Shown here piece after piece: positions 7,185-30,599 of a stretch of 38,924 nt of DNA. The stretch is taken from positions 1-38,924 of the forward strand of contig JADBKA010000011.1 in assembly GCA_014896635.1 (NCBI GenBank). The letters run 5' to 3'. The DNA comes from Ktedonobacteraceae bacterium. GTDB taxonomy: Bacteria; Chloroflexota; Ktedonobacteria; Ktedonobacterales; Ktedonobacteraceae. How positions within the stretch are numbered: the stretch's first letter is position 1; the number at the start of each line of letters is the position of its first letter. The notes below the pieces were generated by a model. The model made no database searches. It saw only the letters and a list, made by a program, of their open reading frames with translations, and was not told where the DNA came from. Made by a program: the position numbers and the translations under genes.

Positions 7185-7461
7185 GGATGGCACTCTGTAG
7201 AATAGACGAAAGGGGGGAGGATTTCTCCAACGGGGAAGGCGGGAAGTTTTTACGTGCTCCTGAGCGGCAACAAAGGAAGGGTGTCCTGATCCCACCTGCA
7301 ACCCTAACGCAAGGCTTTTCAGTTTTCCTTTTCTCCCTCCCTCCCGAAGGAGAAAAACAAAAAAGCTGTAGTCCCACCATTTATGGCGGAGACACCGGTG
7401 CGCCCCTGGGCTCCCGCTTTTTTAAAAACTGAAAAGCCCTGCCCCAACGACAGGTTCAGAA
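7185..7461. other. Gene-free stretch with repeat debris
   Basis: No credible gene was seen here. Bases 7205-7300 are G-rich sequence resembling worn repeat modules. Bases 7313-7438 form the inverted-repeat element listed separately. Confidence 0.5.
7313..7438. mobile_element. MITE-like element, 126 bp with 14-bp perfect terminal inverted repeats
   Basis: GGCTTTTCAGTTTT (7313-7326) is matched perfectly by its reverse complement at 7425-7438. The interior holds CCACCATTTATGGCGG, the same module as hairpin 3 of the copy at 14-90, and the A/T palindrome CTTTTTTAAAAA. A related element with nearly the same ends lies at 8331-8521. No clear target-site duplication was found, so mobility is inferred. 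Confidence 0.55.
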
Positions 7462-7623
7462 CTATTCGCCGATCAGGCGCAGGTTGTAGGTTGCTTTGAG
7501 GTCGGCAATCCAGTCGTCGAAGACCTGTTCATTGATCTTTTGCTCAGTGAGTACAGGAAAGAGGGTCCGTTCTACAAAGGTCTTCCTGTTGATCGACAGG
7601 TCCTGACTGGAGTGTCTCCTCTG
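7462..7623 (-). pseudogene. C-terminal remnant resembling a PpiC/SurA-type peptidyl-prolyl isomerase
   Basis: The minus-strand frame ending with TAG at 7462-7464 reads 53 codons back to an in-frame stop at 7624-7626. It ends in EQVFDDWIADLKATYNLRL. The pattern F-x-x-W-I-x-x-L-K near the end is typical of the last helix of PrsA/SurA-like foldases. There is no start codon or room for the rest of the enzyme. The remnant overlaps the 3' end of the flavodoxin gene in another frame, which suggests an old deletion joined the two genes. The family assignment is tentative. Confidence 0.35.
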
Positions 7624-8224
7624 CTAACAACGCCCGGCCACGCACCCACTGCCGTGTCACCAGAGCGACACGACGGCCAAGAGCCTCTGCTGTTTCGAGA
7701 TCACTTCTAGGGGGAGCAACGTCGGGTCCGGCATCCGCATTGGATTGCGCCATCGCGCCAAGCCAGCTCCCTAACCGGTTGAGATCCTCAATACTGCCGG
7801 TGCTGTGATCCCAGCCGGCATAGAGGCCGAGATTGACCCAATGCATCCCATGTTGAGCGGCCAGGATCGCCAGATCAATAAGCGAATTGAGCTTATCGCC
7901 GTTAATCGTCTGCGAATTGGTGAACCCGGCAGCAATTTTGTCCTTCCAGCGCATGTTATCGGCGAAAATTCTGGACGTTCTTTCAGCAAAGGTTTTGAAG
8001 ACAGCGGACGGCGATCCCATATAGGTAGGCGCCCCGAAAATGATGGCATCGGCCTGGTCCAGAGCAGTCCACAGCGCATCGGTGAGTTCAGCGACATTGT
8101 GCAATCCAACCTGAACTCCTGGCACAGAGGCCGCCCCACGAGCTACTGCCTCGGCCTGCCTGGCTGTATGCCCGGAACCACTGTAATAGGCAATGGCCAC
8201 ACGGATCGTTTCTGTAGAAGACAT
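7544..8224 (-). CDS. Flavodoxin / WrbA-like NAD(P)H-dependent oxidoreductase
   Basis: The 226-residue product has the flavodoxin fold signature of the WrbA group. The FMN phosphate loop reads YYSGSGHTARQAE (about 13-25). A second flavin loop is GAPTYMGSPSAVFKTF, and AAGFTNS follows. The family reduces quinones or related electrophiles with NAD(P)H as a soluble FMN enzyme. ATG 8224 has AGGGAG about six bases upstream. The last 25 or so residues look unlike the family and run into the remnant at 7462-7623, so the natural C-terminus was probably replaced by a deletion junction. It is divergent from the GIY-YIG/XRE/MarR gene across a strong palindromic operator, the classic layout for a MarR regulator and its target. 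Confidence 0.83.
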   Translation of the reverse strand: MSSTETIRVAIAYYSGSGHTARQAEAVARGAASVPGVQVGLHNVAELTDALWTALDQADAIIFGAPTYMGSPSAVFKTFAERTSRIFADNMRWKDKIAAGFTNSQTINGDKLNSLIDLAILAAQHGMHWVNLGLYAGWDHSTGSIEDLNRLGSWLGAMAQSNADAGPDVAPPRSDLETAEALGRRVALVTRQWVRGRALLAEETLQSGPVDQQEDLCRTDPLSCTH

Positions 8225-8252
8225 TGTATACTCCCTGGAATTGTGATATAGT
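8224..8252 (+). promoter_or_regulatory. Possible promoter toward the GIY-YIG/XRE/MarR gene
   Basis: TTGTAT (8224-8229) and TATAGT (8247-8252) are separated by 17 bases on the plus strand. The -10 box is part of the left operator arm, mirroring the opposite promoter. A transcript from here would carry more than 300 untranslated bases, including a repeat element, before ATG 8584. Confidence 0.35.
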
Positions 8253-8306
8253 CAGATTGTTGCAGTCACAACAAGATTGTTGTATATGCAACAATCTAAC
8301 TATATC
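8245..8306. promoter_or_regulatory. Nested palindromic operator between flavodoxin and MarR-fusion genes
   Basis: GATATAGTCAGATTGTTGCA (8245-8264) is repeated in inverted form at 8287-8306 with one mismatch in 20. Inside lie a second palindrome, ACAACA-AGAT-TGTTGT (8268-8283), and a third half-site AGATTGTTG (8274-8282) that pairs with CAACAATCT (8289-8297). The unit AGATTGTTG(C/T) thus occurs three times. Both ends contain TATAGT -10 boxes. A winged-helix dimer of the MarR type is the likely ligand. Confidence 0.75.
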
Positions 8307-8328
8307 GCCAGTGGCTGGTAATTGTCAA
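8299..8328 (-). promoter_or_regulatory. Promoter of the flavodoxin gene
   Basis: On the minus strand, TTGACA (8328-8323) and TATAGT (8304-8299) are separated by 18 bases. The -10 box overlaps the outer arm of the operator, so a bound repressor would block it. The transcript would start near 8292, about 68 bases before ATG 8224. Confidence 0.72.
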
Positions 8329-8330
8329 GT

Positions 8331-8521
8331 GCCTTTCAGTTTTTAAAAAAGTGGGAATCCAGGGGGTGTTCCCAGAGGGGAATAGGGATTCCTTAAGTAG
8401 GTGGACAGAACGAATGAGAAGCGGGGTCCAGGGGCGGCCGCCCCTGGCGGGGCAGGGGGTGTCCCCCCGAAAACCTCTTTTCCCTCTTGAGAGGGAGGGG
8501 AGAAAGGAAAACAGAAAAGCC
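8331..8521. mobile_element. MITE-like element carrying the GC-rich repeat core
   Basis: Near-terminal inverted repeats are GCCTTTCAGTTTTT (8331-8344) and AAAACAGAAAAGCC (8508-8521), close to those of the element at 7313-7438. The interior has a hairpin with arms GGAATCC (8353-8359) and GGATTCC (8386-8392), and a perfect 20-bp palindrome CCAGGGGCGGCCGCCCCTGG (8428-8447). These are followed by GGGGGTGTCCCCCC and a pyrimidine/purine hairpin around TTGA (8488-8491). It separates the operator from the gene at 8584 and fills most of this gap. Confidence 0.6.
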
Positions 8522-8583
8522 CTGACGAAGCAAACATCAAAAACTAAACAGCTCTCTGCGCAACAATGGAGAGGAGTCCAACC

Positions 8584-9582
8584 ATGTATACAATCTACGC
8601 CCTTATTGATGTGAGAGATAACAGTATACGCTATGTCGGCCTGGCAACTAACATATTTACTCGTTTAAGCCAGCATTTACTCGATACAGGCAAAAATACT
8701 CCTGAAGGATTATGGCTCGCAGAAATGCAGCAAGCAGGGTTATCTCCAAGATTAGAGGCACTAGAGACATTAGATTCATCTAAAAATACTTATCAGCAGG
8801 CCTATGAGCGCAAAAAATACTGGATACAAAAGCTTACACGGGATGGCGCATCATTAATAAATGTGAATGACTCTGGTAGTAAGGTTAAATCATCATCGCG
8901 CCAGTCACAGCATGTCATCTTATCACCCACACAGCTACGTAAATATAGAAAATGGCTAAAGTGGTCACGGGAAGAATTGTCACGCCGGGCGAATATTCAT
9001 CTCGATACCATCTACGCGGCTGAGAATGGCGAACCAGTTTTAACTCAAGTAGCAAACACTCTTGCTGAGGCATTAAGCAGCGGATCTGATAAACGGATCA
9101 CACCGGCTGATATTGTAGATACTCGGTTGGAGCAAACACAACTGAGAGCCTGGCGCACCTTCATAACTGCTTATGCAACGGTAATCGATCTGATCGAACA
9201 CGAACTGGCTGAAGCCGGGCAGTTGCCGCTCTCATCCTACGATGTATTGCTTGCGCTTGTAGAAGCCCCGAACCGCCGTCTGCGCATGCATGAGCTGGCT
9301 CAAGCAGTGGTACTTAGCCGGAGTGGTCTCACACGCCTTGTAGATCGCCTGGAACGAGAAGGATTGCTCAGGCGTGAGCGCAACGGATCAGATCGGCGAG
9401 CAACCTATGCAGTTCTCACACTTAAAGGGTTTCGCGCCTTTCGGCAGGCCTGGCCGGTTTATGTTGAGGGGATTATCAAATATTTCGTGCAATATCTTGG
9501 AGAAGAGGAGTTGGATGCACTTACGCAGATGCTTGAGCGGGTTCTGAGAGCGGCACATAGTGAGTCTCCACCTCGCCGGTGA
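8584..9582 (+). CDS. GIY-YIG nuclease domain - XRE HTH - MarR winged-helix fusion regulator
   Basis: The 332-residue product joins three domains. Residues 1-97 are GIY-YIG-like: TIYAL and RYVGL stand for the two name motifs, followed by R27 and H31 in TRLSQH, E75, and WI with LIN at 91-93. Residues about 113-178 form an XRE-type helix-turn-helix (WSREELSRRANIHLDTIYAAENG). Residues about 184-330 are a full MarR domain with HELAQAVVLSRSGLTRLVDR as recognition region and the NGSDRRATYAVLT wing. Start ATG 8584 follows GAGGAG by eight bases. The first part is visibly richer in A+T: 8641-8700 has 22 of 60 G+C, 9301-9360 has 33 of 60, which suggests an acquired N-terminal module. It probably represses the divergent flavodoxin gene. 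Whether the nuclease domain cuts DNA is unknown. Confidence 0.85.
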   Translation: MYTIYALIDVRDNSIRYVGLATNIFTRLSQHLLDTGKNTPEGLWLAEMQQAGLSPRLEALETLDSSKNTYQQAYERKKYWIQKLTRDGASLINVNDSGSKVKSSSRQSQHVILSPTQLRKYRKWLKWSREELSRRANIHLDTIYAAENGEPVLTQVANTLAEALSSGSDKRITPADIVDTRLEQTQLRAWRTFITAYATVIDLIEHELAEAGQLPLSSYDVLLALVEAPNRRLRMHELAQAVVLSRSGLTRLVDRLEREGLLRRERNGSDRRATYAVLTLKGFRAFRQAWPVYVEGIIKYFVQYLGEEELDALTQMLERVLRAAHSESPPRR

Positions 9583-9759: not shown

Positions 9760-11127
9760 ATGTGTCCTGAACAATCGTCAGGAAAGATCGGGAAGTCCGT
9801 AGGAGAGAGGTTGCGAGCGGCCCGCATGGCCCGGCACTTCACTCAGAGCCAGCTTGCCGCCCCCGACTTCTCAGTCAGTTACATCTCCGCCATAGAGCGT
9901 GGCCAGATCCACCCATCATTACGTGCTCTGGAGATCCTTGCCAACAGGCTTGGCCTCCCACCGGCACAACTGCTGCCGGTGCGCTCTCAGCAAGAGGAAC
10001 AACACTCTTCCGGGTCATCAAGTATTAGTGAAGTAGATAATGATGAAATAGAATTAGTTCTTCTGGAAGCAGAAGTACAGATTAGACAAAATGTTGCAGC
10101 ACAGACTCTAGCTGAACTGGAGAATCTCGCTGCCGGACAACTCACGCCAGCCCAGCAATTACGGCGACACTATTTACTTGGTCGGGCTTATTATAAAGTC
10201 GGGCGGTTCCAGGAGTGCGATTATGTGCTGGCAGAGGCGATACAGGGCGCCAAAGATACTCATGATGCACTGATTGCTTATTTTTTTGTGCGCACACTCC
10301 ATCTCCAGGCGCTGGCTCAGGCTGCTATGCGCAACTATGCGCAGGCGCTGTCGATTGAGCAGCGTTGCCTCTCGCTGCTTGAATCCCTCAGGCCATCCGA
10401 CCCCTTCTTCACTGCTCAGGTCTACATGCACACCGGACAGCATTACACCTGCCTTGAAAATCCAGCACAGGCCATCACTATGTTCGGCAAAGCTCTTGCC
10501 CTGATAGAGAGCCTGGCTGCTCCTGAGAAGATGCAGGACGCTTACTGGCAGCTCTGCCAGCAGCACGCTAGAGCTGGAGTATATGAACTGGCGCTTCTTT
10601 ATGCGATGAAATGCACACAGCTTTACCACCAGCGTATGCAGAGGCAACTTGCCAGCGAACTGTACTATTACCTGGGCAAAGCCGTCATCGAGGCAGGAGA
10701 AGAGCAGACCGGAATCTTCTTTGCAAAAATTTCAGGCCAGAACAGCATGGTGATGACACAGGACTCCCTGGTACAGGCCAGCATCCAGGCGCGCCGCGCC
10801 GAGTGGGAGTTGCGGCAGCAGCGGTTTGAAACGGCTCATCAGTATATTCGGCGGGCCTGCGAACTGGCTGATCCAGTCGGCGACACACTCATCGGAGCCG
10901 ATGCTCACGTTCTCTACGGCCATATCGCTTACGCGCGGCAGCAGTATGAGGAAGGAGACCGCCATTTTGCTACCGGTCTGGATATGCTGGAACGCCTGCA
11001 CTGTCATGAAGAACTGGCAAACGAGTCAGCACGCTATGCAGAACTACTAGAGCAGACAGGAAAGGTTCATGAAGCATTTAGTTATTTTCGACGCGCGTTC
11101 CAGAGCCGGCAGGAACTGGGAAAATAA
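9760..11127 (+). CDS. XRE-family HTH regulator with TPR repeats (paralogue 1)
   Basis: The 455-residue product has an N-terminal XRE helix-turn-helix (about 12-70) with TQSQLAAPDFSVSYISAIERG, a short Ser/Glu-rich linker, and then helical TPR-like repeats to the end (for example LLGRAYYKVGRFQECDYVLAEA). The architecture is that of cytoplasmic regulators whose TPR part senses a peptide or protein partner. ATG 9760 is preceded by GAGGAGGAGG. A matching gene with the same architecture reads in the opposite direction at 13406-14788; the two flank the sigma/anti-sigma pair. It converges on the anti-sigma gene with only 16 bases between the stops. Its target is unknown; the palindrome in its own promoter suggests autoregulation. 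Confidence 0.85.
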   Translation: MCPEQSSGKIGKSVGERLRAARMARHFTQSQLAAPDFSVSYISAIERGQIHPSLRALEILANRLGLPPAQLLPVRSQQEEQHSSGSSSISEVDNDEIELVLLEAEVQIRQNVAAQTLAELENLAAGQLTPAQQLRRHYLLGRAYYKVGRFQECDYVLAEAIQGAKDTHDALIAYFFVRTLHLQALAQAAMRNYAQALSIEQRCLSLLESLRPSDPFFTAQVYMHTGQHYTCLENPAQAITMFGKALALIESLAAPEKMQDAYWQLCQQHARAGVYELALLYAMKCTQLYHQRMQRQLASELYYYLGKAVIEAGEEQTGIFFAKISGQNSMVMTQDSLVQASIQARRAEWELRQQRFETAHQYIRRACELADPVGDTLIGADAHVLYGHIAYARQQYEEGDRHFATGLDMLERLHCHEELANESARYAELLEQTGKVHEAFSYFRRAFQSRQELGK

Positions 11128-13405: not shown

Positions 13406-14788
13406 CTATTCAAAATCGACTCGCTTACCGAGGCGCTGGTGCTCGTAAGCTTTTTTGATAGCATTGAGGCTACGCTGCATTTCGCCACGCTCCTCCAGCA
13501 GGTTAGCGAAGCGGAAGTAGGCGCCGGCAGCGATTTCATGAGCCTGCGAGGCATCCAGCAATTCCAGGGCTTCGTTAAAGAGCTGATCGGCGGAGGCGAA
13601 ATCGCCGCTCTGGTGACGAATCTGCGCCAGAGTGATAAGTGCCTGCCCCTGTGTCTGGGCGTCTTTGCTGGCCTGCGCAAACTTGAGAGCTTCGCGGGCT
13701 TCCTGTTCTGCCACTTCTGCCCGTCCTCGTCTGAGCAGGAGTTCCGCCAGAGCGGTATGGCAGGTAGAGGCCGCGATTTCATCGTTCAGTTCGCGCTCGA
13801 TGGCGATAGCTTTGCGATACTCCTGTTCGGCTTCATCCAGCTTGCCCCGCTTCTCCAGCGCCTTTCCCAGACGCTGGTGGGTCAGACCGATCAGGCGCTG
13901 CTCGTCGCGCATCTCATAGAGAGCCAGACTGCGCATGGCATATTCACGGGCCATGACCAGTTTCCCGGCCTCCTTGTAGTGCTGGCTGATCTCTATATAT
14001 CTTTGCGCGAAACCTTTGCTATCGTGCTCCATCTGCTCCAGGGTTGCCAGCGCGCGGTGAGAAAAGTCAATAGACTTTTCCAGTTCGCCGGAACGGAAGT
14101 AGTCGTTTGCCAGGTTGCTGAACACTTCGAGGGAAAAAACAGGATCGCTGATCTGCCCGCTCTCGATAGCCTGGCAACATTTGAGGTGATTCTCCAGCGC
14201 CAGGGTATAGTTATAGAGCAGGTAGTAGGCTTTACCGAGCTGGTTGCGAGCGCGCTCGGTATATTCTCTGTCGTCGAGTGCTTCGCCTTGAGAGACGGCA
14301 GTACGCAGATCGACAACGGCCTCCTGGTACTCACCGCTGCCCAGGTGTACCAGCCCTTGTAGTAAATAGAACTGGTATGCCTGGTCGGTGGTGATGCGTT
14401 CCGGCTGGATGGGGGCTAGCAACTTTTCGGCCTGGGCGTAAGCGCCCTGCTGTACAAGCACACTGGCCTGGAGCAGATCGAGATCCACTTTCTGATCAGG
14501 ACCGGTATCTGCCGGTGAATAGCCAACTGCCCGCGCTTCGGCAGCGCCCGCCGGTGAGCCTTCCAGCAGGAAGGTGAGGGGGACATCCAGGCGGCGAGCC
14601 AGCACGGAAAGCGCCTTCAGCGAAGGTCGGATCTTCCCGCGTTCAATGGCAGAAATGTAGGAGATGGAAAATTCGGGGGCAGCCAACTGAGCTTGAGTCA
14701 TGCCTAGTCTGGTGCGTACTTCGCGTATATTTGTACCGACTCTTGCTGCCACTGCCCTGCCCACATTTGCAGTTTCCAGGGATGGCAT
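13406..14788 (-). CDS. XRE-family HTH regulator with TPR repeats (paralogue 2)
   Basis: From ATG 14788 the product has 460 residues. The XRE helix-turn-helix (about 15-75) reads TQAQLAAPEFSISYISAIERG, almost identical to paralogue 1. At least six TPR-like repeats follow (for example LGKALEKRGKLDEAEQEYRKA). The start is chosen because AAAGGA lies about nine bases before it; longer in-frame versions exist upstream but add residues unlike the family. It lies upstream of the sigma/anti-sigma pair in the same direction, but with its own upstream region. The product is probably a cytoplasmic regulator with protein- or peptide-sensing repeats; the ligand is unknown. Confidence 0.82.
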   Translation of the reverse strand: MPSLETANVGRAVAARVGTNIREVRTRLGMTQAQLAAPEFSISYISAIERGKIRPSLKALSVLARRLDVPLTFLLEGSPAGAAEARAVGYSPADTGPDQKVDLDLLQASVLVQQGAYAQAEKLLAPIQPERITTDQAYQFYLLQGLVHLGSGEYQEAVVDLRTAVSQGEALDDREYTERARNQLGKAYYLLYNYTLALENHLKCCQAIESGQISDPVFSLEVFSNLANDYFRSGELEKSIDFSHRALATLEQMEHDSKGFAQRYIEISQHYKEAGKLVMAREYAMRSLALYEMRDEQRLIGLTHQRLGKALEKRGKLDEAEQEYRKAIAIERELNDEIAASTCHTALAELLLRRGRAEVAEQEAREALKFAQASKDAQTQGQALITLAQIRHQSGDFASADQLFNEALELLDASQAHEIAAGAYFRFANLLEERGEMQRSLNAIKKAYEHQRLGKRVDFE

Positions 14789-15460
14789 AGAACGTTTTCC
14801 TTTCAACGCATAGTGCTGCATAAAAAAATCTGCACTCTCGTAAAAAATGATTCCATCAAGGTCCAGGATCGCGCCTGTCAGGCGGGGCAAGCGGGTTCCC
14901 TCTCAGAGGACATCCCCTCCCGCTTTTCCCATACCTGGCTTGCCGGACCATTTAGAGTATAAGCTACGCTTGTAACTCTCTTGCAATACAGTGTGTTCTA
15001 CAGTGACACAGAAGCTACAAGAAGAGGAACCGCTAGATAATACGTTATATTCCGAAGTGTAGCATAAGAGATGTGGTCAGTCAATCCTTATTGTACTTTT
15101 TTCACAGTCAGATTATATAATTCTTCATATCGCTCCACCCTGGAAACATGAAATATTTTTGAAGTAGAAAACGCTGAGGTTTTCAATTCCGCTTGTTTCC
15201 GCTGCCGTCTACGTAGAAATAGAGTGGCTCGGCAGTAGAGTTGGTGGATAACAGGCTGCCGCTGGCTGCTCTTCTCGCACACAGGCCGGGAGAAAAAAGG
15301 TCATCAGTGCCAGTTTCAGAATACCTCAAATCTGGCAAGTCTCTGATTATTTTACTGACAGACTGGTACAGATTACCTATCCCCGGAGTATACAGCCATT
15401 GTACAGCTATGGATACCTATGGTCAATGAGGAAGGACTAAACTATAATGTAAGCTCACTA
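14789..15460. other. Gene-free stretch upstream of rsmI and the XRE-TPR gene
   Basis: No credible coding frame, tRNA or repeat core was seen over about 670 bases, which are richer in A+T than the surroundings. It contains TGTGTTCTACA (14992-15002), related to the palindrome in the promoter of paralogue 1, within a short direct repeat of ACAGTG. Bases 14890-14930 resemble worn repeat debris. Confidence 0.5.
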
Positions 15461-16290: not shown

Positions 16291-17727
16291 TTATGGAACA
16301 CTGCCTGCGAGAGACATAAAAGTGTAGGCCGGCAGGTAGACAAAGTGCAACGCTGAGAGAGGGAGGGGCGGGCGTGGTCGTGGTACATCCCAGTAGACGG
16401 GATAGAGGAAGTCCGCTCCTTTATCCAGGTGCAGCGCATATTCCCACTCGCGGGTGACGTAGCTCGCCTGTTGAGCACGAGCGGACCAGCAGAGCTGGAA
16501 AACATCGGCGCCTTCGATAGCGCTGCGTACTTCTTCGCACAGTTTGCGGCTGGATCGTAGCGTTTCGATGTTCAGCATCGTTGTATTCCCCAATGCCCGG
16601 TAGACGTGCAGACAGGCGTTCCTGGCCGCCGTATCTTCAAAACTGTATGCGGCAAAAACGCGCCTGTAGAGTTGTGTCGTGCGACTGCTGTCACGATCAG
16701 GTATCTGCGCATCGGGAGCCATGATCACTATTTCCAGTTTCAGGCGCGCTATAAGCAAAGGACCGGCAAAGAAGGAAATGACTCCGCTGGCTGTTTTCCC
16801 CGCGAGATCTCGCTTGCCGGATATGCGAAGCACCAGTTGATGCCAGTCGTTCTGCCAGTGGAAGGTCAGTCGCCTGGGATTGAAGATTACGCCCGGACAT
16901 TCAGGTATCACGGTGATCGGCAGTCCCTGTAGGGACTGCGGGCCGGGCTGCTCCCCGCCGGGTCTGTGCAAGTGAATGGCGGAATCAGCCTCTTCTTCCC
17001 TGTACAGGGATGCATCTTTGTAAATAGCCGTGGCTGCCTGCTCAACGTGCGCATAGAGGAGCAGCACATACCAGTTAGAAGCGGTGATTTGCTGCGGCAA
17101 GAAAGCAGTAAAACGCAGCGGAGCGCCGGGCCACTCTGGTGGAAGGCTCGAAGGGACCAGAGGGGTGGAAGGGGCTGGCGGAGTCTGTAGCACTGCCGGT
17201 CGCGGCGCGACCGCTGGCGAGAGAACAGGTGACGGGGCAACTTGCGCAACCGGCAGAGGAAGATCGACGTCAGCACGCTCACCCGGTTGTTTCTGCTCAC
17301 CGCTATGCAGGTTCTGTACGCCAGCATGGCGGTGCTGCGCCTCTGCCACCGCTTTTTCTACTTCGGAAAGCAGCGGGTTCTGGATTGTGGGAAGGTCCGA
17401 CATATCTTCTGAAGCCTGGAAGACAAACATCAATCTGCCGAGGTTGATTCTATCGCCATGATTGAGAACATATGGCTTCATGACCTCAACCGGTTCACCA
17501 TTGAGTAGCGTGCCGTTAACGCTCCCTTCGTCGCGCAGGATATAATCGTCATTTTCGCGGACAATGACGGCATGGCGACGTGAGATGAGCTTATCTTGCG
17601 AGAGTCTGATATCACGTGCAGAGCCACGCCCTATGGTTGTTTCTGTCTTCTCCAGCGTGTACTCCCGCATGACCTCACCTGCCTGAGAGCAGAGGAGCAA
17701 GCGGGCAGGTGGTTTGATCAGGCTCAT
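16291..17727 (-). CDS. FHA domain - unnamed beta domain - TIR-like domain fusion
   Basis: The 478-residue product starts with an FHA phosphothreonine-binding domain (about 20-105) with GRGSARDIRLS, SRRHAVI and DEGSVNGTLLNG. A Pro-rich linker follows (about 120-200). A beta-rich domain of unknown family (about 200-350) has WYVLLLYAHV and FNPRRLTFHWQNDWHQLVLR. The last part (about 355-470) looks like a TIR fold: VFAAYSFEDTAARNA, then a GADVFQLCWSARA strand and SYVTREWEYAL. The Glu of the last motif lies where TIR NAD-cleaving enzymes carry the catalytic residue, but activity is not shown. ATG 17727 is taken because the family similarity begins there; the ribosome binding site GAGG is modest. 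The product suggests kinase-dependent signalling or stress/defence. Confidence 0.72.
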   Translation of the reverse strand: MSLIKPPARLLLCSQAGEVMREYTLEKTETTIGRGSARDIRLSQDKLISRRHAVIVRENDDYILRDEGSVNGTLLNGEPVEVMKPYVLNHGDRINLGRLMFVFQASEDMSDLPTIQNPLLSEVEKAVAEAQHRHAGVQNLHSGEQKQPGERADVDLPLPVAQVAPSPVLSPAVAPRPAVLQTPPAPSTPLVPSSLPPEWPGAPLRFTAFLPQQITASNWYVLLLYAHVEQAATAIYKDASLYREEEADSAIHLHRPGGEQPGPQSLQGLPITVIPECPGVIFNPRRLTFHWQNDWHQLVLRISGKRDLAGKTASGVISFFAGPLLIARLKLEIVIMAPDAQIPDRDSSRTTQLYRRVFAAYSFEDTAARNACLHVYRALGNTTMLNIETLRSSRKLCEEVRSAIEGADVFQLCWSARAQQASYVTREWEYALHLDKGADFLYPVYWDVPRPRPPLPLSALHFVYLPAYTFMSLAGSVP

Positions 17728-17847
17728 GACTGCCCTCTGCCCGGAGCCTGCCGGGCGCTTCTGGCAATATAGTTCTACTCTGTAAGGCAAGCATAACAGA
17801 AAAAATGACACAAGGCAAGTAGTCGAGTGCTCGTATGATAGCCGCTC

Positions 17848-19283: not shown

Positions 19284-19961
19284 TTACTCCTCTATCACAT
19301 ACTGAAACGTGAGCATCGAGACACTCAGAAAAATTATATCAAATGCGATGATCAGGCCAAACCAGGGCGGTTCGTTCACTACCGGCGCGATCAACGCGCC
19401 AGTCAGGCGCACGGCACCGATTACTACCGGCACCAGCAGCGGAAAGACGAGCACGGGGAGCAGCAACTCGCGCGCTCGCGTTGCCGCCGTCATGGCCGAG
19501 AAGAGCGTGCCGATGCTGGCAATGCCGGTCGTTCCCACCAGGACGACGAGCAGTAGCTCGCCGATAGAAAGGCGCACGTCGAAGAGCACGATGAAAACAG
19601 GGATGGCAACAACTTCGACGATGCCGATAAAGAGCAGGTTGCCGAGCAGCTTGGCGAGGTAGATGGCTCTGCGATCTACCGGGCAGAGCAGGAGACGGTC
19701 CAGTGCGCTCTGTTCGCGTTCGGTGGCCATCGTGCGTCCGAGACCGAGCAGGCTGGCAAAAAGAAACGCTATCCACAGGACACCAGGTGCAACGGCAGCT
19801 TTATCACCAATGCGTAGATCAAAGGCAAAGTTGAAGACCACCAGCACGAGCAGCGCAAAAAGAGCCATACCGACCCAGGTCTGCCGGCTGCGCAGTTCGC
19901 AGCGAATATCCTTCCACAGAATAGTCCCTACCTGTATGCAAAAGTCCTGTACGCTCCTCAT
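19284..19961 (-). CDS. ccmB: Heme exporter permease CcmB
   Basis: The 225-residue product has six hydrophobic segments and the family pattern KDIRCELRSRQTW near the start, then FLFASLLGLGRTMATERE and LLLCPVDRRAIYLAKLLGN. CcmB is the membrane partner of the ATPase CcmA in the CcmABCD complex. Its start overlaps the ccmA stop by four bases, as expected of subunits made in equal amounts. Confidence 0.92.
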   Translation of the reverse strand: MRSVQDFCIQVGTILWKDIRCELRSRQTWVGMALFALLVLVVFNFAFDLRIGDKAAVAPGVLWIAFLFASLLGLGRTMATEREQSALDRLLLCPVDRRAIYLAKLLGNLLFIGIVEVVAIPVFIVLFDVRLSIGELLLVVLVGTTGIASIGTLFSAMTAATRARELLLPVLVFPLLVPVVIGAVRLTGALIAPVVNEPPWFGLIIAFDIIFLSVSMLTFQYVIEE

Positions 19962-20770
19962 CGCCCCATCTCCTGATATATGCGCTGTAATTCGGTGAGT
20001 TCGAGCTGCGCGGCTGCCTGCCGGTAGGCGATACGCCCGCCGCCAAGCACAACGACCTGATCGCTCAGAGAGAGGGCGCGATCAAGCAGGTGTGTGGTGA
20101 AGAGAACACCACCACCACGCGCTGTGTGCTCGCTCAGCAAGACGTTAATCAGCGCGTGGCCAGCCTGATCGAGTCCGGTATCAGGCTCGTCAAGCAGCAG
20201 CAGCAGCGGGTTGTGCAGCAAGGCACGCGCCCAGGCGAGACGCTGGAGCTGCCCGCGTGAGAGTGTGCCGGCGCGCTCGTTCTGCTGCCGTTGTAAGCCA
20301 ACGCGCCGCAACAATTCTTGCGCCCGCTCCACCGCGTGCTCTACCGCGTACATACGGCCAAAGAATAGCAGATTCTCCAGCACGGTCAGATCTTCGTAGA
20401 GATAGGGCTGATGGGCTACGAGGCCAACAAGACGGCGCACGCGCTGCGCATCACGCGCACAGTCGAGGCCCGCAACGGTGACAGAGCCGGCGCTCGCTTT
20501 CGCCAGGCAAGCAAGGATACGCAGGAGTGTGGTTTTGCCGGCTCCGTTCGCGCCGAGCAGCGCCATGCATTCGCCGCGCTGAAGCGTGAGATCAATGCCG
20601 CGCAGCACCGGTTTCAGGGTATAGCTTTTCTTGAGACCGCATACCTCTACCAGCGCCGGTTCAGTCGCCTCTCTCTCTAAAAACCGCTCACCTGGCTTCT
20701 TCTGTGCTTTACCTTCTATCATATGCTCCACCCCGGCAGACGCGCGGTAGCCGGTCTCCACGCTGCTCAT
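19958..20770 (-). CDS. ccmA: Heme exporter ATP-binding protein CcmA
   Basis: The 270-residue product is an ABC ATPase with Walker A GANGAGKTT, signature LSRGQLQRLAWARALL, Walker B LLLLLDEPDTGLD and switch His in TTHLLD. CcmA uses ATP to drive release of holo-CcmE from the CcmC-CcmD-CcmE complex. It carries about 40 extra residues before the conserved domain. The start overlaps the stop of the preceding gene by four bases (ATGA). An internal start (ATG after 16 codons) is possible. Confidence 0.92.
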   Translation of the reverse strand: MSSVETGYRASAGVEHMIEGKAQKKPGERFLEREATEPALVEVCGLKKSYTLKPVLRGIDLTLQRGECMALLGANGAGKTTLLRILACLAKASAGSVTVAGLDCARDAQRVRRLVGLVAHQPYLYEDLTVLENLLFFGRMYAVEHAVERAQELLRRVGLQRQQNERAGTLSRGQLQRLAWARALLHNPLLLLLDEPDTGLDQAGHALINVLLSEHTARGGGVLFTTHLLDRALSLSDQVVVLGGGRIAYRQAAAQLELTELQRIYQEMGR

Positions 20771-22158
20771 CTGCGGCTCGCCTCTCGTCTGCTCTTCTCC
20801 TCATTTATCAGCCTGCGTAGCTGCGCTTTAAGTTTTGCACGCTTCTCCTGATAAACTGTCTTTTTGATTTTACCGTCCTCGTAGGTTTTATCCAGTTCGA
20901 GTATTTTGTGCAGAAGTGCCTGCTGACGCTCTTTTGGATCTCTGCCATCGCTCTCTTCTTCTTCGTCTTCATTCTTGCTCTTTTGCCTGGATGAATCGTA
21001 TTTCGTCTCTTTCTCCTCGCTCTTTGTTCGCTCACGCTCAGAGGACGTCTCTCTCGCCCGGCTGCTGCGCGTTGAACGCTTTTTCGCGGGAAAGAACCGT
21101 CCCTGAAGACGCACGAGAAAGGCAGTGACAAAGAGAATCGCTATCATGATCACTATGCCCACAACCAGCCAGACGATGTTCATATTGATCGGCGAGGGCG
21201 CGCTGGCGCTGGCCGGCAGCGGTAGACCTTCCATATTCAGATGGACTTCCTGCCCCGGTAGCAACTGCGAGGTCTGCAAGCGGCGGTAAGCATGCTGGTC
21301 GGCATTGACGACACCCTGCGCGGTCAGCGAGCCAGAACTGGTGCGAATATCAGGCGGTACCAGCACCGACAGCAGCAGCGTAGGATATCGTGCAGTATAG
21401 GCGAGATCATAGCTGGATGAAGTGTAGGGGACTTCAAAGGCGAAGGAGAATTCGGACGCGCCGGGCGGAATTGCCGCATCGGTGGCAAAGCCGCCATCAA
21501 CCTGGATGGCCTTATAGCCGCCAAATCCTTTGCTTAGATTAACGTTGCGCGCACCGCGCGGCAGCGAGAACAGCAGCGCGTTGGGCCTGCCCTTGCTGGC
21601 ATCAAGCGAGCCGACATAGGTGCGCAGGTCCAGATTCCTGAAGCCGTAGATCTCCGATATGGTAATAGTGCCTTTCTTCGTATCAGGCTCGCGTATGAGG
21701 AGAGTGGTTTGAACAATAGCGAGCTTGCTGGTATCGGTGGTGGCCTGGTAGACCGTCAGGTTGACCTGCTGCTCTGCTTTCTGGGCCAGCGAAACCACGT
21801 CGGAGATATACTGCGCGCCCTGGTAGCGTATGTAGACAACGTAACTGATGGTTTTGTCGGTTGCCAGGTTAGAGAAAGTGTAGGTGCCGTGCGCATCGGT
21901 CGTGGTGCTGGTCAGATCGCGGGTGCTGCTGCCCTGCGCCATCTGGAGCGTCACGCTTTGTCCGGCAAGTGGTGCATTTTTATGCGTGCCATCCAGCAAT
22001 TGGCCGGTAATGCGACCATTGCCAGCATCTCGCACAGCCGCCTGGACATTGTGGGCAGACGCGAAATCGCCGGCAACCAGGCTCGCAGCGATGAGCACGA
22101 CCACAGCCAGCACACTCAATAGACATATATATGTAAGTCTATGTATCATCTTTCTCAT
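20767..22158 (-). CDS. Unknown membrane protein with CnaB/carboxypeptidase-regulatory-like domain, in the ccm operon
   Basis: From ATG 22158 the product has 463 residues. It has a signal peptide or anchor (about 5-30), a carboxypeptidase-regulatory/CnaB-like beta-sandwich (about 48-125, GRITGQLLDG and TDAHGTYTFSNL), a second beta-rich region, one membrane segment (about 325-350), and a long charged cytoplasmic tail. The tail is rich in Arg, Ser, Glu and Lys. Its end, HKILELDKTYEDGKIKKTVY, forms a helical hairpin resembling that of the neighbouring CcmI-like protein. The gene overlaps the ccmI-like stop upstream and ccmA downstream, so it is part of the maturation operon. No canonical Ccm protein fits; a scaffold for apocytochrome or heme handling is inference. 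GTG 22170 is an alternative start. Confidence 0.6.
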   Translation of the reverse strand: MRKMIHRLTYICLLSVLAVVVLIAASLVAGDFASAHNVQAAVRDAGNGRITGQLLDGTHKNAPLAGQSVTLQMAQGSSTRDLTSTTTDAHGTYTFSNLATDKTISYVVYIRYQGAQYISDVVSLAQKAEQQVNLTVYQATTDTSKLAIVQTTLLIREPDTKKGTITISEIYGFRNLDLRTYVGSLDASKGRPNALLFSLPRGARNVNLSKGFGGYKAIQVDGGFATDAAIPPGASEFSFAFEVPYTSSSYDLAYTARYPTLLLSVLVPPDIRTSSGSLTAQGVVNADQHAYRRLQTSQLLPGQEVHLNMEGLPLPASASAPSPINMNIVWLVVGIVIMIAILFVTAFLVRLQGRFFPAKKRSTRSSRARETSSERERTKSEEKETKYDSSRQKSKNEDEEEESDGRDPKERQQALLHKILELDKTYEDGKIKKTVYQEKRAKLKAQLRRLINEEKSRREASRR

Positions 22159-22537
22159 GATGTCCTTCACGTTCCCTTAGCCTGCGCAACTGCTCTTCAA
22201 TCTCATCATCAATTTCCTGGTCACTTCTATAGCGCGATTTGAGCGCCACCAGCGCCCGGTTCATATACTGCTCGCGTAAAGCGCGATAATCAGCCTCAGC
22301 AATATTACCAAGCTGGTAGTCGAATTCCACCTCTTGCAAGGCGCCACGTACCGCCCGTTCCTGCTCTTCAACCGGCTCAGCAGCATCACCGGCATCACCG
22401 GTACCGGCAGCACTTTCGCTGTCCGGTGCCGCCTTTACAGGATACGCGGTCACAACGGGTGCATGCCGCTGATACAGCGGAAAGAGCACAAACGCAAGTG
22501 CCAGCATACCGAGAGCAATAGCTACGATGATTCCCAT
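22139..22537 (-). CDS. CcmI-like cytochrome c maturation protein (short form)
   Basis: The 132-residue product has an N-terminal membrane segment (about 1-20), an acidic linker, and a helical hairpin ALQEVEFDYQLGNIAEADYR that matches the CcmI N-terminal region. The TPR domain that proteobacterial CcmI uses to hold apocytochromes is missing. It overlaps ccmH upstream (16 bases) and the unknown gene downstream. The shared hairpin in the next protein hints that the two divide the CcmI role. Confidence 0.68.
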   Translation of the reverse strand: MGIIVAIALGMLALAFVLFPLYQRHAPVVTAYPVKAAPDSESAAGTGDAGDAAEPVEEQERAVRGALQEVEFDYQLGNIAEADYRALREQYMNRALVALKSRYRSDQEIDDEIEEQLRRLREREGHHEKDDT

Positions 22538-23121
22538 GAGCGTTCCCTCATCCTGTAATGCTCAAATAGTGCATCGTCTTCGGCCAGTTCCTCAACGAGT
22601 AGAGAGCGCAGGTAAGCCGTTTCTTCGGTATTTGCACCATTTATGACCGTTTTCTCTTTTCGTTGTTCCTGCTCCTTTCCCAGATGCGGAACAGCCGCCG
22701 CCGCGTCAGAGGCTGCTCGCCAGTCGCGCAGGGTTAGCAGCAGAAAGAGCGCGCCCAGTCCTATCGACGTGATAGGCACCAGCCAGGTCAGCAGCGTGAT
22801 GCCCTGCCAGGGCGGCGACCAGACGACGCTGCTGCCGTAGCGGCTCGCAAAATACTGGATAATCTCCTGCTCGGACCTGCCCTGCTGCAACTGCTGGCGG
22901 ATCGCGTCACGCATCTGCTGCGCCAGCGCCGATTGAGAATCCGCCACTGACTGGCCCTGACAGAGTTGGCAGGTGAGTTGCTCAGCCACCGCCTGCACAC
23001 GCTGGTCGAGCGTGCGCCTGGTCAGCGCAATCAGCCAGAGCGACGACCAGACGGCAACGATCAGCGCCACCGCAGCCAGTAGCAGGAAAAGCCTGCGCCT
23101 CTGCTTTCTGTTTTCTCTCAT
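22522..23121 (-). CDS. ccmH: Cytochrome c maturation protein CcmH (CycL-type)
   Basis: The 199-residue product has a signal anchor (about 10-33), the redox motif LTCQLCQGQSVADS with C51 and C54, and a C-terminal membrane segment (about 105-125). CcmH reduces the CxxCH cysteines of apocytochromes outside the membrane so that CcmF can attach heme. The cytoplasmic tail of about 70 residues is longer than in classical CcmH. The start overlaps the ccmF stop by four bases. Confidence 0.88.
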   Translation of the reverse strand: MRENRKQRRRLFLLLAAVALIVAVWSSLWLIALTRRTLDQRVQAVAEQLTCQLCQGQSVADSQSALAQQMRDAIRQQLQQGRSEQEIIQYFASRYGSSVVWSPPWQGITLLTWLVPITSIGLGALFLLLTLRDWRAASDAAAAVPHLGKEQEQRKEKTVINGANTEETAYLRSLLVEELAEDDALFEHYRMRERSWESS

Positions 23122-25160
23122 GAGACCGCCACTCCCTTCTCCTGGCTCTCACCCGGCGCCGTCTCTCCAGCATTCTCGGACGGCGTTGCACGCGGCACAC
23201 GAGCAGTGATCAGGCGTTGTGGGCGGCCAGGCCACCAGCATATGCTGCCGCCAAGCAGCATCAACACGCCACCGAGCCAGATGAACGGCACCAGCGGATT
23301 GATGAAGATGAGCAGGTTCGTTTCGCCTGCTCCCTTCCAATCGTTCAGCACAACATAGAGATCGGTCGCGCCGAAGGTCGTAATCTCGATCTGACTGGCA
23401 GGCTGGTCATTGAAGTTATGATAGATGGTACGCCCTGGATAAATATAGCGTTTGAGTTGTCCCTCGCGCCAGATCTGCACCTGCGAATAAATCATCTCGC
23501 GGTCCGGCAAGCCGGTATAGTCAATGTTGCCCAGGAAAACCAGGCGATAACCGGCGACGCTGGCTTCCTGACCGGCTTTGAGATTGACGCTCTGCTGGAT
23601 CTGGAAAAAGTGCGAACCGATGATGCCGGCAGTGACCAGCACCAGCCCCAGATGCACGAGATAGCCACCGTACCGCTGGCGGTAGCGATTGAACAGCATG
23701 TACACGGCCAGTATGTAAGGTTCGCCATGCCTGTGACGGACGCGCGCGCCGCGCCAGAGTTCGTAGAAGATAGCGCCGGCAGTAAATGTGCAGACGGAGA
23801 AGCCGACATTAGCGGCGGGATCGGTGATGCCGGTCAGCGGCAGGATAAGCGCGCAGATGGCCGCGCCAACCGCCGGGATGCTCAGATTGCGCCACAGAGC
23901 CGCCGTCGAAGTGCGACGCCAGGCCAGCAACGGGCCAATGCCCATCGCCAGCACCAGCACGATCAGCAGCGGGCCAATGACGCTGTTGTAAAACGGCGGT
24001 CCCACGCTGATCGTCTGGCGACTGAGGAAGGACGAGACGAGTGGGAAGATCGTTCCCCAGAAGACGGCGAAGGCGATGCCGACCAGCAGCAGGTTGTTGA
24101 GCAGGAAAACGCCTTCGCGTGAGATAATCGAGTCAAATTCCTGTTCCGCACGCATGGCAGGCAGGCGGAACACAAACAGCCCGACCGAAAAGACGATCAC
24201 AATGACCAGGAACACGAAAAAGTAGATTCCAATGTCAGAGTACGCGAAGGAGTGGACTGAGCTAATAATACCACTACGCACCTCGAAGGTGCCAAAAATC
24301 GAGAGCGCAAACGACGCGATGACCAGGCTGAGATTCCAGACCTTGAGCATACTGCGCCGCTCCTGTACCAGTGCCGAGTGCAGGTAGGCCGTTGCCGTCA
24401 GCCAGGGCAACAGCGCCGCGTTTTCAACCGGGTCCCAGCCCCAGTAGCCTCCCCAGCCCAGAACGTGATAGGCCCACCAGGCTCCCAGCAGCAAGCCGCC
24501 CGTCTGAATCCCCCAGGCGGCAAGCATCCAGCGGCGAATGGCGTGCAGCCACTCATTGCTGAGCCGTCCTGTGATCATAGCCGCAACAGCGAAAGCAAAA
24601 GGCAGCGAGAAGCTCATAAAGCCAAGCAGCAGCAAAGGCGGATGGACCAGCATACCGGGGTCCAGCAGCAGCGGATTGAGGCCCCTGCCGTCTTCCGGCG
24701 GGGGGCTGATACGTACAAAAGGATTAGAGGCAGCGGTGAGCACAATCAGGAAGAAGGCTTCAATGCTCATCAGCACAGCGATGATATACGGCACCAGGGC
24801 CGCTGGCGTTCGCCGGGCCGTGAAGACGAAAATGGCGGAGAAAATCGCCAGCACCAGCGCCCAGTAGAGCAAGGAGCCTTCCTGCCCACCGTAAAACGCG
24901 GCGGTCGTGTAGAACCAGGACATGGCGCGGCTGGAGTGCTCGGCGACGTAACGCACGCCGAAATCGCGGGTCAGGAATGAGACCACCAGCGCAGCCGCCG
25001 CCAGCAGCGTAAAGCCGGTCACAATCAGCACGCCGCGCCTGGCACTCTCAACCAGCGGCGCGATATGGCGTACCGCTCCCAGTACGGCAGCGACAACTGA
25101 GTAGCAAGCAAAGCCCAGAGCCAGGATGAGAGCAATGATGCCAAGATCCGAAAAATACAC
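23118..25160 (-). CDS. ccmF: Cytochrome c heme lyase subunit CcmF
   Basis: The 680-residue product is a large polytopic membrane protein of the CcmF size. The tryptophan-rich motif WGGYWGWDPVENAALLPWL lies near residues 215-235. Flanking histidine-bearing loops and a long extracytoplasmic domain (about 500-630) are present. CcmF receives heme from CcmE and ligates it to reduced apocytochrome with CcmH. Fifteen bases separate its start from the ccmE stop. No truncation was seen. Confidence 0.95.
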   Translation of the reverse strand: MYFSDLGIIALILALGFACYSVVAAVLGAVRHIAPLVESARRGVLIVTGFTLLAAAALVVSFLTRDFGVRYVAEHSSRAMSWFYTTAAFYGGQEGSLLYWALVLAIFSAIFVFTARRTPAALVPYIIAVLMSIEAFFLIVLTAASNPFVRISPPPEDGRGLNPLLLDPGMLVHPPLLLLGFMSFSLPFAFAVAAMITGRLSNEWLHAIRRWMLAAWGIQTGGLLLGAWWAYHVLGWGGYWGWDPVENAALLPWLTATAYLHSALVQERRSMLKVWNLSLVIASFALSIFGTFEVRSGIISSVHSFAYSDIGIYFFVFLVIVIVFSVGLFVFRLPAMRAEQEFDSIISREGVFLLNNLLLVGIAFAVFWGTIFPLVSSFLSRQTISVGPPFYNSVIGPLLIVLVLAMGIGPLLAWRRTSTAALWRNLSIPAVGAAICALILPLTGITDPAANVGFSVCTFTAGAIFYELWRGARVRHRHGEPYILAVYMLFNRYRQRYGGYLVHLGLVLVTAGIIGSHFFQIQQSVNLKAGQEASVAGYRLVFLGNIDYTGLPDREMIYSQVQIWREGQLKRYIYPGRTIYHNFNDQPASQIEITTFGATDLYVVLNDWKGAGETNLLIFINPLVPFIWLGGVLMLLGGSICWWPGRPQRLITARVPRATPSENAGETAPGESQEKGVAVS

Positions 25161-26850: not shown

Positions 26851-26967
26851 ATATCAAATCCGGTTAAATAGTGATCATTAGCGTGGGGGTCCAGGGGGCC
26901 GTGCCGGCCCCCTGGCGGGGTCTGGGGTGTCCCCCCACATCAATCACTTTTTAAAAAGATTTGATAT
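26851..26967. repeat. Dispersed multi-hairpin repeat with locus-specific inverted arms
   Basis: The outer arms ATATCAAATC (26851-26860) and GATTTGATAT (26958-26967) form a perfect 10-bp inverted repeat. Inside are the core hairpin CCAGGGGGCC / GGCCCCCTGG (26891-26900 / 26906-26915), GGGGTGTCCCCCC, and CTTTTTAAAAAG (26947-26958). The element lies in the leader region of the ccm operon and almost fills the 26807-27129 gap, together with the motif at 27044-27065 and the hairpin at 27090-27120. Confidence 0.65.
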
Positions 26968-28548: not shown

Positions 28549-30537
28549 TCACAATTTTGCCAGTTTGTAGCCAACGTCGGGGACAGTCAGGATATAGCGG
28601 GGGCGGCGTGAATCAGTTTCGATTTTACGACGCAGGCGGCTAATGTAGACCCAGATGAAGTCGATATCGCGGTTGTATTCTGGTCCCCACACTTTTTCAA
28701 GCAGGAGTTCATGGGTAACAACAATACCTGCATTCTGGGCCAGCAGGCTGAGCAGCTTGTACTCGGTCCGGCTGAGCTGGATCTGGCGGCCCTGCACGGT
28801 AACGATATGCTGAGCATAGTCGATAGTCAGCTCGCCGGTGGTGAAGACGCTCTGGCTGGCGGCCTGCTCAGGAGCAGCAGTACGGCGCCGCAACAACGCA
28901 CGCACACGCGCCAGCAGCTCTTTCATGCTAAAAGGCTTGATCACCAGGTCATCACTGCCCAGATCGAGAAGCTGAGCACGCTCGTCCTCATCGCAATCAT
29001 CGCAAAGCATGATTACAGGCGTTTGCGAGAATTCGCGCACGCGCTGTAAAAGTTCAATCCCGCTCATATCGGCAAGGCGCGTGGAAAGAATGAGGATCTC
29101 TGGCTCCTCCAGATCAAGCTGGCGCAGGCACTGGAGACCCTGACTGACGGCATGTACGCGATATTGCTGCTCTTCAAGATTAGCGCGCAGATAACGTATG
29201 AGACGTGAATCACTTTCAGCCAGCAAGACATGGGCGCTGCGGTTGGTTCTGCGCAAAGCAAGCGGTGTCGTACTCCGCTGCTGCGGGAGCGTCGCGTCGG
29301 ATTCGGCGAGAGCGGCAGTGACGCACGATTGCATGACCGAGGTAGTGCGTGGCGTGAAAGGCAACGTAAAATAGAATGTTGCGCCGTGGCCGGGACCGGC
29401 AGAATCGGCCCAGATTTTGCCGCCATGCGCTTCAACGGTTGCGCGGGCTGCTGCCAGGCCGAGACCACTGCCTTTCTGTGGCTCATCGTCGGACGAGATC
29501 CGGTAGAACCGGTCAAAGATATGCTCCAGATGTTGAGGGGCAATGCCAACGCCTTCGTCTGTAATGCTGACACGCACCTCAACATCATTAGCTTCGAGGC
29601 GAATTTTCACCGGGCTGCCTGCCGGTGAATAGGCGATGGCGTTGCCTATCAGGTGGTTCATAACCAGCTCGATGCGCCCTGCATCACACATCACGGGTGC
29701 AATATCGGGCGGAATATCCAGGACAAAGCGATGAGCCTGGATATCGTTCTGCCAGTATTTGACCTGCTGGAGCAACAAATCAGCGAGTTGCACCTGGGCC
29801 AGGTGCAGCGTACATGCGCCAGTTTCAAAGCGCCAGACATCGAGCAGCGTATTGAGCACATCATGGAGACGATCTGCCTGCGTGTCGATCATTTGCAGCA
29901 TTTCGCGCTGAATCGCCGCGTCCCAGCGAGCCGAGTTGCCGAGCAGCGTGGTAGCACAGCCTTTGATGACCGCGAGTGGAGTTTTCAGCTCGTGCGCAGC
30001 GCGAGCCAGAGCCTCGCTATGCGCTTCGGCGGCGGAACGTTCCAGGGTAATATCTTCAAGAAGAAAGCCGCGTCCACTCAAATGGCTATCGTGGCTGCGC
30101 ACCGGAAAGGTGCGCAAACGCAGCCAGCGTGTAGTGCTCCCCTGATCCTCTCCGCTCGTCAGGGCAAGCTCGATAGTATATTCCTGTTCAGTCGCGCGCC
30201 AGAGGCGTTCCAGATCGCTGCGAGCGCGCAGCGGATCGGCGGCGAGAGCGAGCAGTTGCTTGCGCAGATCGAGTTTCTCCGTGCTGCTTGCAGTGGACTT
30301 TGTGAGACGCAGCAAGCGGAGCGCGCTCTGATTACAATAGATAATACGCTCCTGCTCGTTGAGCAGAAGAAAGCCACTGCTCAGGTTGCCACAGACATCA
30401 GCAAGAGCGGCAAACTCGCGCGTGAAGCCAACCGGCAGGGATGGTACAGCTTGAACAGGCTGATCTGCTACAGGCTGTTGTGCAGTAGTCATGATGTTAC
30501 TTTCTGCAAACCAGACGTCCTCGCTCTGGATGTACAT
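28549..30537 (-). CDS. Hybrid sensor kinase - receiver - winged-helix DNA-binding protein
   Basis: From ATG 30537 the product has 662 residues in one soluble chain. A PAS-like domain (about 40-165) is followed by HisKA with the phospho-acceptor in AAHELKTPL (H near 182), and an HATPase domain with MNHLIGNAIAY, DEGVGIAP and GSGLGLAAA. A receiver (about 430-545) ends in VIKPFS. An OmpR/PhoB-type winged helix (about 560-660) has LSRTEYKLLSLLA and a VGYKLAKL end. The receiver lacks the phospho-acceptor Asp: the site reads LILSTRLADMSG, with Ser where Asp belongs. No membrane segment is seen, so the signal is probably cytoplasmic. The start is uncertain; GTG 30594 and ATG 30492 are alternatives. 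Confidence 0.85.
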   Translation of the reverse strand: MYIQSEDVWFAESNIMTTAQQPVADQPVQAVPSLPVGFTREFAALADVCGNLSSGFLLLNEQERIIYCNQSALRLLRLTKSTASSTEKLDLRKQLLALAADPLRARSDLERLWRATEQEYTIELALTSGEDQGSTTRWLRLRTFPVRSHDSHLSGRGFLLEDITLERSAAEAHSEALARAAHELKTPLAVIKGCATTLLGNSARWDAAIQREMLQMIDTQADRLHDVLNTLLDVWRFETGACTLHLAQVQLADLLLQQVKYWQNDIQAHRFVLDIPPDIAPVMCDAGRIELVMNHLIGNAIAYSPAGSPVKIRLEANDVEVRVSITDEGVGIAPQHLEHIFDRFYRISSDDEPQKGSGLGLAAARATVEAHGGKIWADSAGPGHGATFYFTLPFTPRTTSVMQSCVTAALAESDATLPQQRSTTPLALRRTNRSAHVLLAESDSRLIRYLRANLEEQQYRVHAVSQGLQCLRQLDLEEPEILILSTRLADMSGIELLQRVREFSQTPVIMLCDDCDEDERAQLLDLGSDDLVIKPFSMKELLARVRALLRRRTAAPEQAASQSVFTTGELTIDYAQHIVTVQGRQIQLSRTEYKLLSLLAQNAGIVVTHELLLEKVWGPEYNRDIDFIWVYISRLRRKIETDSRRPRYILTVPDVGYKLAKL

Positions 30538-30599
30538 GTCTTCTTCAGGGGAATTGCTCCGCAAACCGTACCCCTTTCCCTCGAATTCGCGCACTTCTG

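Follow-up and report, generated by a model that had tools for sequence, protein, structure and literature searches.

What would a protein do that joins a homing-type nuclease domain to the DNA-binding domain of a transcriptional repressor? The question is raised by a gene at 8584-9582 (+ strand) in a 38,924-nucleotide stretch of DNA from a Ktedonobacteraceae bacterium (assembly GCA_014896635.1, contig JADBKA010000011.1; the whole stretch is hereafter called the window). The gene has a Shine-Dalgarno-like AGAGGAG at 8570-8576 and encodes 332 amino acids plus a stop. A sequence-only reading had described its product as a GIY-YIG domain, an XRE helix-turn-helix and a complete MarR domain in one frame. 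From sequence comparisons, we consider it somewhat probable that the protein works as a MarR repressor of a divergent flavodoxin/WrbA-like gene, whose promoter is covered by a dyad (8257-8294), and that the homing-type module it carries has no nuclease activity here and contributes extra DNA binding at most.

All three domains of that description were borne out. Residues 1-94 (8584-8865, + strand) match the GIY-YIG superfamily (PF01541, 24.0 bits vs a cut-off of 22.6) and, as predicted, the fold of I-TevI. Residues 112-185 (8917-9138, + strand) form a Cro/C1-type XRE helix-turn-helix (PF01381, HTH_3, 30.4 vs 23) with fold matches to C.AhdI and SinR, and residues 186-332 (9139-9579, + strand) a MarR winged-helix domain (PF12802, 49.7 bits vs 27; PF01047, 41.7 vs 24.6) for which PDB 3zpl is both a sequence match (E 5e-19) and the top fold match. 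A Foldseek search with the GIY-YIG and XRE part together returned no match under E 0.001. A domain scan at E up to 1 found no NUMOD-type DNA-binding domain in the fusion protein, although some of its relatives have one. Composition changes along the protein, in agreement with the A+T-richer N-terminal third noted earlier.

Homologues were sought among 5.8 billion proteins by scoring the 7998 candidates with the most common words; the best 120 of 235 matches are considered here, and further fusions may exist. Among these matches, P0003 is the only three-domain homologue besides the window's own entry (331 amino acids, 76% identity). Four others (P0004-P0007, 253-258 amino acids) have GIY-YIG and MarR in the same order without XRE, and many are MarR-only, the nearest (P0008-P0014) at 73-79% identity. 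Since P0003 repeats the entire architecture on another contig, an assembly error or chance read-through, which the sequence-only reading had named as a danger, is ruled out. The frame is a genuine single protein, common to a small set of relatives beyond chance.

A profile search with the GIY-YIG and XRE part found 45 proteins. One of these, P0124 (176 amino acids), consists of the two domains alone and in the same order, with 42% identity over 94% of residues 1-185, and its C-terminus is the XRE tail, the point at which MarR starts in the fusion. Because this standalone protein stops where MarR begins, it is very likely that two complete proteins were joined, a homing-endonuclease-like GIY-YIG-XRE protein having been fused to the N-terminus of a MarR-family repressor. 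Other GIY-YIG relatives carry HTH_17 (P0127), NUMOD1 or NUMOD3 (P0138, P0142, P0158 and P0160, among those checked) or HNH_3 (P0147), and the N-terminal domain therefore belongs to a homing-endonuclease-like group that swaps DNA-binding parts. At the junctions of the XRE-less fusions, the start of XRE (QQITLSPAQL) runs into MarR (KTWRTF) in P0004, while LSDIADSG in P0006 and LSDIIDSG in P0007 correspond to the XRE end of P0003 (LSDIVDSG); in P0005 neither XRE end is clearly kept. As three of these four junctions retain an XRE end, XRE was present first and lost later, by what the junctions indicate were at least two deletions. The earlier idea that a regulator had captured a homing-type module is thus supported by the NUMOD-bearing relatives, P0124, the close MarR-only homologues and the composition shift. 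Capture of GIY-YIG alone was rejected, given P0124 and the persisting XRE ends; GIY-YIG and XRE were captured together.

To place the active site, we aligned 46 rows, the six fusions and 40 other GIY-YIG hits (P0122-P0161; P0162, which has XRE only, was left out); the rows are not independent, since P0126 looks like a shortened P0125. Alignment to I-TevI puts the catalytic Glu, the residue changed in PDB 1mk0 (titled an E75A mutant), in the column after a conserved Arg. This is position 77 of the window protein, where codon AAA (8812-8814, + strand) encodes Lys. Of the 46 rows, 43 have Glu in this column; the exceptions are Lys in the window protein, Ala in P0004 and one short row that is gapped there. 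Position 27 is Arg in 45 of 46 rows and Cys only in P0005; Y5, Y17, G19 and H31 are invariant; and position 93 is Asn in 39 of 46 rows and Ser in P0006 and P0007. The window protein thus keeps Y5, Y17, R27, H31 and N93 and lacks the conserved metal-binding Glu. The sequence-only reading was right about R27 and H31 and mistaken in taking E75 for the catalytic Glu: E75 fits I-TevI by number, not by alignment, which calls for caution when activity is deduced from motif letters.

Among the other fusions, P0003 retains all six motif residues, P0004 and P0005 have lost Glu or R27, as the window protein has, and P0006 and P0007 retain both of these and are without the C-terminal Asn. Loss of Glu or Arg occurs in 3/6 MarR fusions vs 0/39 other rows with the gapped row dropped (Fisher p 0.0014, for related rows), and is therefore seen only in MarR fusions. 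According to a part of PMC1952068, cleavage is abolished by E75A in I-TevI and by E142A in R.Eco29kI, and changes of R27 and R104 leave residual activity. We conclude that the nuclease is likely dead in the window copy, judging by Lys77. A dead GIY-YIG domain can nonetheless stay a DNA-contacting part, because catalytic mutants of I-BmoI retain DNA binding and distortion, as stated in an excerpt of PMC3161791.

A plausible site of action lies upstream. Operator-like site 1, TTGTTGTATATGCAACAA (8277-8294), has one mismatch to TTGTTGCATATGCAACAA, a motif seen before MarR-only relatives, and site 2, TTGTTGCAGTCACAACAA (8257-8274), has four and is weak alone. These are the only two sites in the whole window at ≤5 mismatches. 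The count itself is unremarkable because shuffled windows average 0.9 such sites; it is the one-mismatch site that stands out. A larger dyad with 19-base arms and two mismatches surrounds both (8247-8304). On the minus strand, a promoter-like TTGACA-18-TATAGT (8299-8328, 11/12 matches) points toward the likely target gene, a divergent flavodoxin/WrbA-like oxidoreductase of 226 amino acids (7544-8224, - strand; FMN_red, 44 bits vs 24) whose score for NF002999, NAD(P)H:quinone oxidoreductase, is 69.8 bits, below the cut-off of 141. Site 1 sits over the expected start of that transcript and 289 bases from the start of the fused gene. Two promoter-like sites fall within 8150-8620, where shuffles average 0.4.

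The motif recurs elsewhere, with at least one such site in seven of eight scanned loci that have a MarR relative. At L001, L002 and L003, TTGNNN-17-TANACT-6-ATG precedes an unfused marR gene, and the motif lies across the -35 or alongside it, which we read as a leaderless promoter that would be self-regulated. Neighbors of the MarR-only genes vary, being dehydrogenase-like in L002 and divergent and DinB-like in L003 (names assigned by eye). We have moderate confidence in MarR-type repression at the palindromic sites in 8257-8294. Two repeats also occur in this region. A 38-nucleotide inverted repeat (7403-7440 and 8328-8365, 87% complementary) flanks the oxidoreductase gene and operator, and a G+C-rich intergenic repeat (CCCCTGGCGGGG...GTGTCCCC) is present in three copies (41-68, 8441-8468 and 26909-26936), one of them between the operator and the fused gene.

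The history of the two parts was compared across the six fusions, whose mean pair identity is 0.81 for GIY-YIG, 0.78 for MarR and 0.54 for the MarR C-terminal segment. Fused and MarR-only proteins are intermixed in one 16-row clade (support 100/99). The approximately unbiased (AU) test does not clearly exclude that all fusions form one clade (p-AU 0.077; 0.045, 0.204 and 0.054 under LG+G4, JTT+F+G4 and WAG+G4+I, respectively). In the poorly resolved GIY-YIG tree the six fusions are not a clade, though one clade is not rejected (p-AU 0.419). Pair identities of the two parts are weakly correlated (r 0.16 over the 15 pairs from 6 rows); for P0003-P0005 they are 0.93 for GIY-YIG vs 0.76 for MarR, and for P0001-P0005 0.72 vs 0.76. 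This would fit a module moving among marR genes, and faster GIY-YIG change in the window lineage would fit as well. The GIY-YIG part rejects the best MarR tree (p-AU 0.003), and the MarR part does not reject the best GIY-YIG tree (p-AU 0.082). Both parts accept 29 of 105 topologies, and the topology tests do not require module movement. No co-conversion signal was found at the join, the adjoining identity being 0.76 both among the fusions and among six MarR-only rows.

How, then, might the protein work? In the reading we favor, the MarR half most likely binds the candidate dyad sites as a dimer and would block the divergent oxidoreductase gene, and probably its own transcription too. It may be released by a small aromatic or quinone-like ligand; thiol sensing is argued against because the protein contains no cysteine. 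The GIY-YIG and XRE domains would add DNA contacts that steer or strengthen binding. The sister fusions would then represent apparent taming steps: the full motif (P0003), loss of Glu or R27, absence of the C-terminal Asn and removal of XRE. Several observations weigh against this reading. Four of the six fusions do without XRE; one of the eight loci scanned (L016) has no operator-like site; the motif was picked after viewing the window and L001, which makes the scan partly circular and not independent; K77 rests on a single contig; and no clear + strand promoter for the fused gene was found in 8150-8620, except one that overlaps its start codon. Moreover, a binding role for GIY-YIG and XRE is not distinguished from passive retention.

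Indeed, the N-terminal 185 residues could be an inactivated homing module that persists as most deletions would break the regulator frame, the MarR half alone doing the work. The loss of active-site residues in half of the fusions and of XRE in four, together with MarR-only relatives that work without any module, would agree with such a relic. However, conservation across the fusions is as high for GIY-YIG as for MarR and higher than for the MarR C-terminal segment, which weighs against a relic because a functionless one should drift faster, and we regard this explanation as possible but doubtful. The sequence-only reading had offered two functions, a repressor that nicks its operator and a nuclease domain repurposed for binding, and the second, though still conjectural, fits better. 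Nicking or cleavage in or close to the operator, or homing, would be in keeping with the five motif residues kept here, with the intact motif of P0003 and with the R27 and Glu of P0006 and P0007. In this copy, though, the metal-binding Glu is Lys, and a change to Ala at that residue kills I-TevI and R.Eco29kI (same part of PMC1952068), so that an active nuclease-repressor is quite improbable and the nicking proposal is not supported for the window protein. More improbable still is a defense or counter-element nuclease that locates invading DNA through its MarR and XRE domains: the protein is predicted to be inactive, it adjoins an oxidoreductase gene and an operator of the type found in its MarR kin, and the 20 neighboring frames scanned (the padloc library was not searched) contain no recognized restriction gene and one FHA-TIR protein.

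A further scenario concerns fusions with intact sites, such as P0003, in which the MarR half might aim the nuclease at marR genes that lack the module. In the unfused loci L001-L003 the motif lies on or next to the -35 of the promoter that immediately precedes the marR start codon, and in the window fusion the module lies between operator and marR. If this unlikely scenario were true, insertion would put a long distance between the operator and the marR start, and an allele that already carries the module would thereby be shielded. The DNA-binding domain of a host repressor would have been taken over by a selfish gene for aiming, and the window protein would descend from such a gene, having given up cutting and retained the repressor. 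The relatives comprise unfused proteins, fusions that keep the whole motif, fusions without an intact active site and fusions from which the second domain has been removed. In the window protein the module shares one reading frame with a transcription factor of the host, and if the repressor reading that we favor is correct, each stage in the domestication of a selfish nuclease as a regulator could be put to the test.

Overall, the observation made from the sequence was confirmed in part and its interpretation supported in part. The sequence-only reading knew of no described regulator with this domain order, and none was found among the listed matches in the open-licence literature; GIY-YIG/regulator fusions as such are not new, because a GIY-YIG protein of Symbiobacterium thermophilum that bears a LuxR-type wHTH/COG3860 module at its N-terminus was noted in 2006 (in a portion of PMC1564403). 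That protein likewise combines a homing-type GIY-YIG with a regulator-type winged helix but, compared by description only, has its regulator module at the N-terminus and from another family. Sco3205/AbsC-type MarR repressors (PDB 3zpl, 3zmd), which have palindromic operators, resemble residues 186-332 in sequence and fold and are without a GIY-YIG or XRE part. I-TevI of phage T4, which an excerpt of PMC2988022 says also serves as an autorepressor, is in contrast an active, intron-encoded homing endonuclease with the catalytic Glu and its own C-terminal DNA-binding domain. P0124, which matches the fusion N-terminus in domains and order, differs in stopping before MarR and keeping the Glu. The chimeric nuclease Odn of ICP1 also gained a DNA-binding domain, and hence its target, from another system but, according to part of PMC8263062, is active and binds a replication origin rather than acting as a repressor. 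The window protein thus appears to be a new combination of known kinds and, in this copy, not a working nuclease-repressor.

Other searches were directed at further relatives. Those with the fusion in genome contigs and viral contigs, which both rely on short patterns, found none, nor did a search with P0124 in viral contigs; a search with P0124 in eight genomes was also empty, but an empty result there is uninformative. In phages and plasmids no place spanned 80% of the query. In five genomes with a MarR-only relative, PF01541 gave seven long frames of 622-707 amino acids, which were assigned to UvrC solely because of their size, plus one 73-residue piece; this search was not exhaustive, because a later profile search gave another GIY-YIG frame, L063, in one of these genomes (G002). 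Among 47 genomes of the class, four had a GIY-YIG match, and no MarR fusion was seen in the frames listed for all four. Among 400 genomes of the phylum, with at most 12 candidates scored in each, at least six had a match at E 1e-6.

In Ktedonobacter sp. SOSP1-85, two broken GIY-YIG copies lie in tandem among small XRE-like genes (L053, 1035-2835), with XRE-like stretches, by eye, behind the GIY-YIG parts. A frame at L064 (2441-3802) resembles transposon TnpB by eye. Dictyobacter arantiisoli (L054) has an intact GIY-YIG protein whose C-terminal part has no Pfam name, and the gene adjoins one with HTH_17-type matches below their cut-offs. Two further frames, of 363 amino acids in Ktedonosporobacter rubrisoli (G002; L063, 1342-2433, - strand) and 378 in genome G038 (L062, 1360-2496, - strand), have a GIY-YIG match in the C-terminal half and, by eye, a Cys-rich N-terminal stretch.

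The window also contains other genes. Near the fusion gene are two XRE-TPR regulator genes (9760-11127, + strand; 13406-14890, - strand), followed by the 506-residue FHA-TIR frame (16291-17811, - strand), in which FHA and TIR_2 both score above cut-off. A cytochrome c biogenesis cluster (19284-25160, - strand) encodes CcmB, an ABC ATPase, a CarboxypepD_reg protein, CcmH and CcmF, and a 653-residue frame (110-2071, + strand) holds CopC, CopD and YtkA/FixH-type domains in a single chain. Finally, a 681-residue frame (28549-30594, - strand) combines HisKA, HATPase_c, Response_reg and OmpR-type Trans_reg_C domains, the arrangement of a hybrid kinase that itself carries a DNA-binding output domain.
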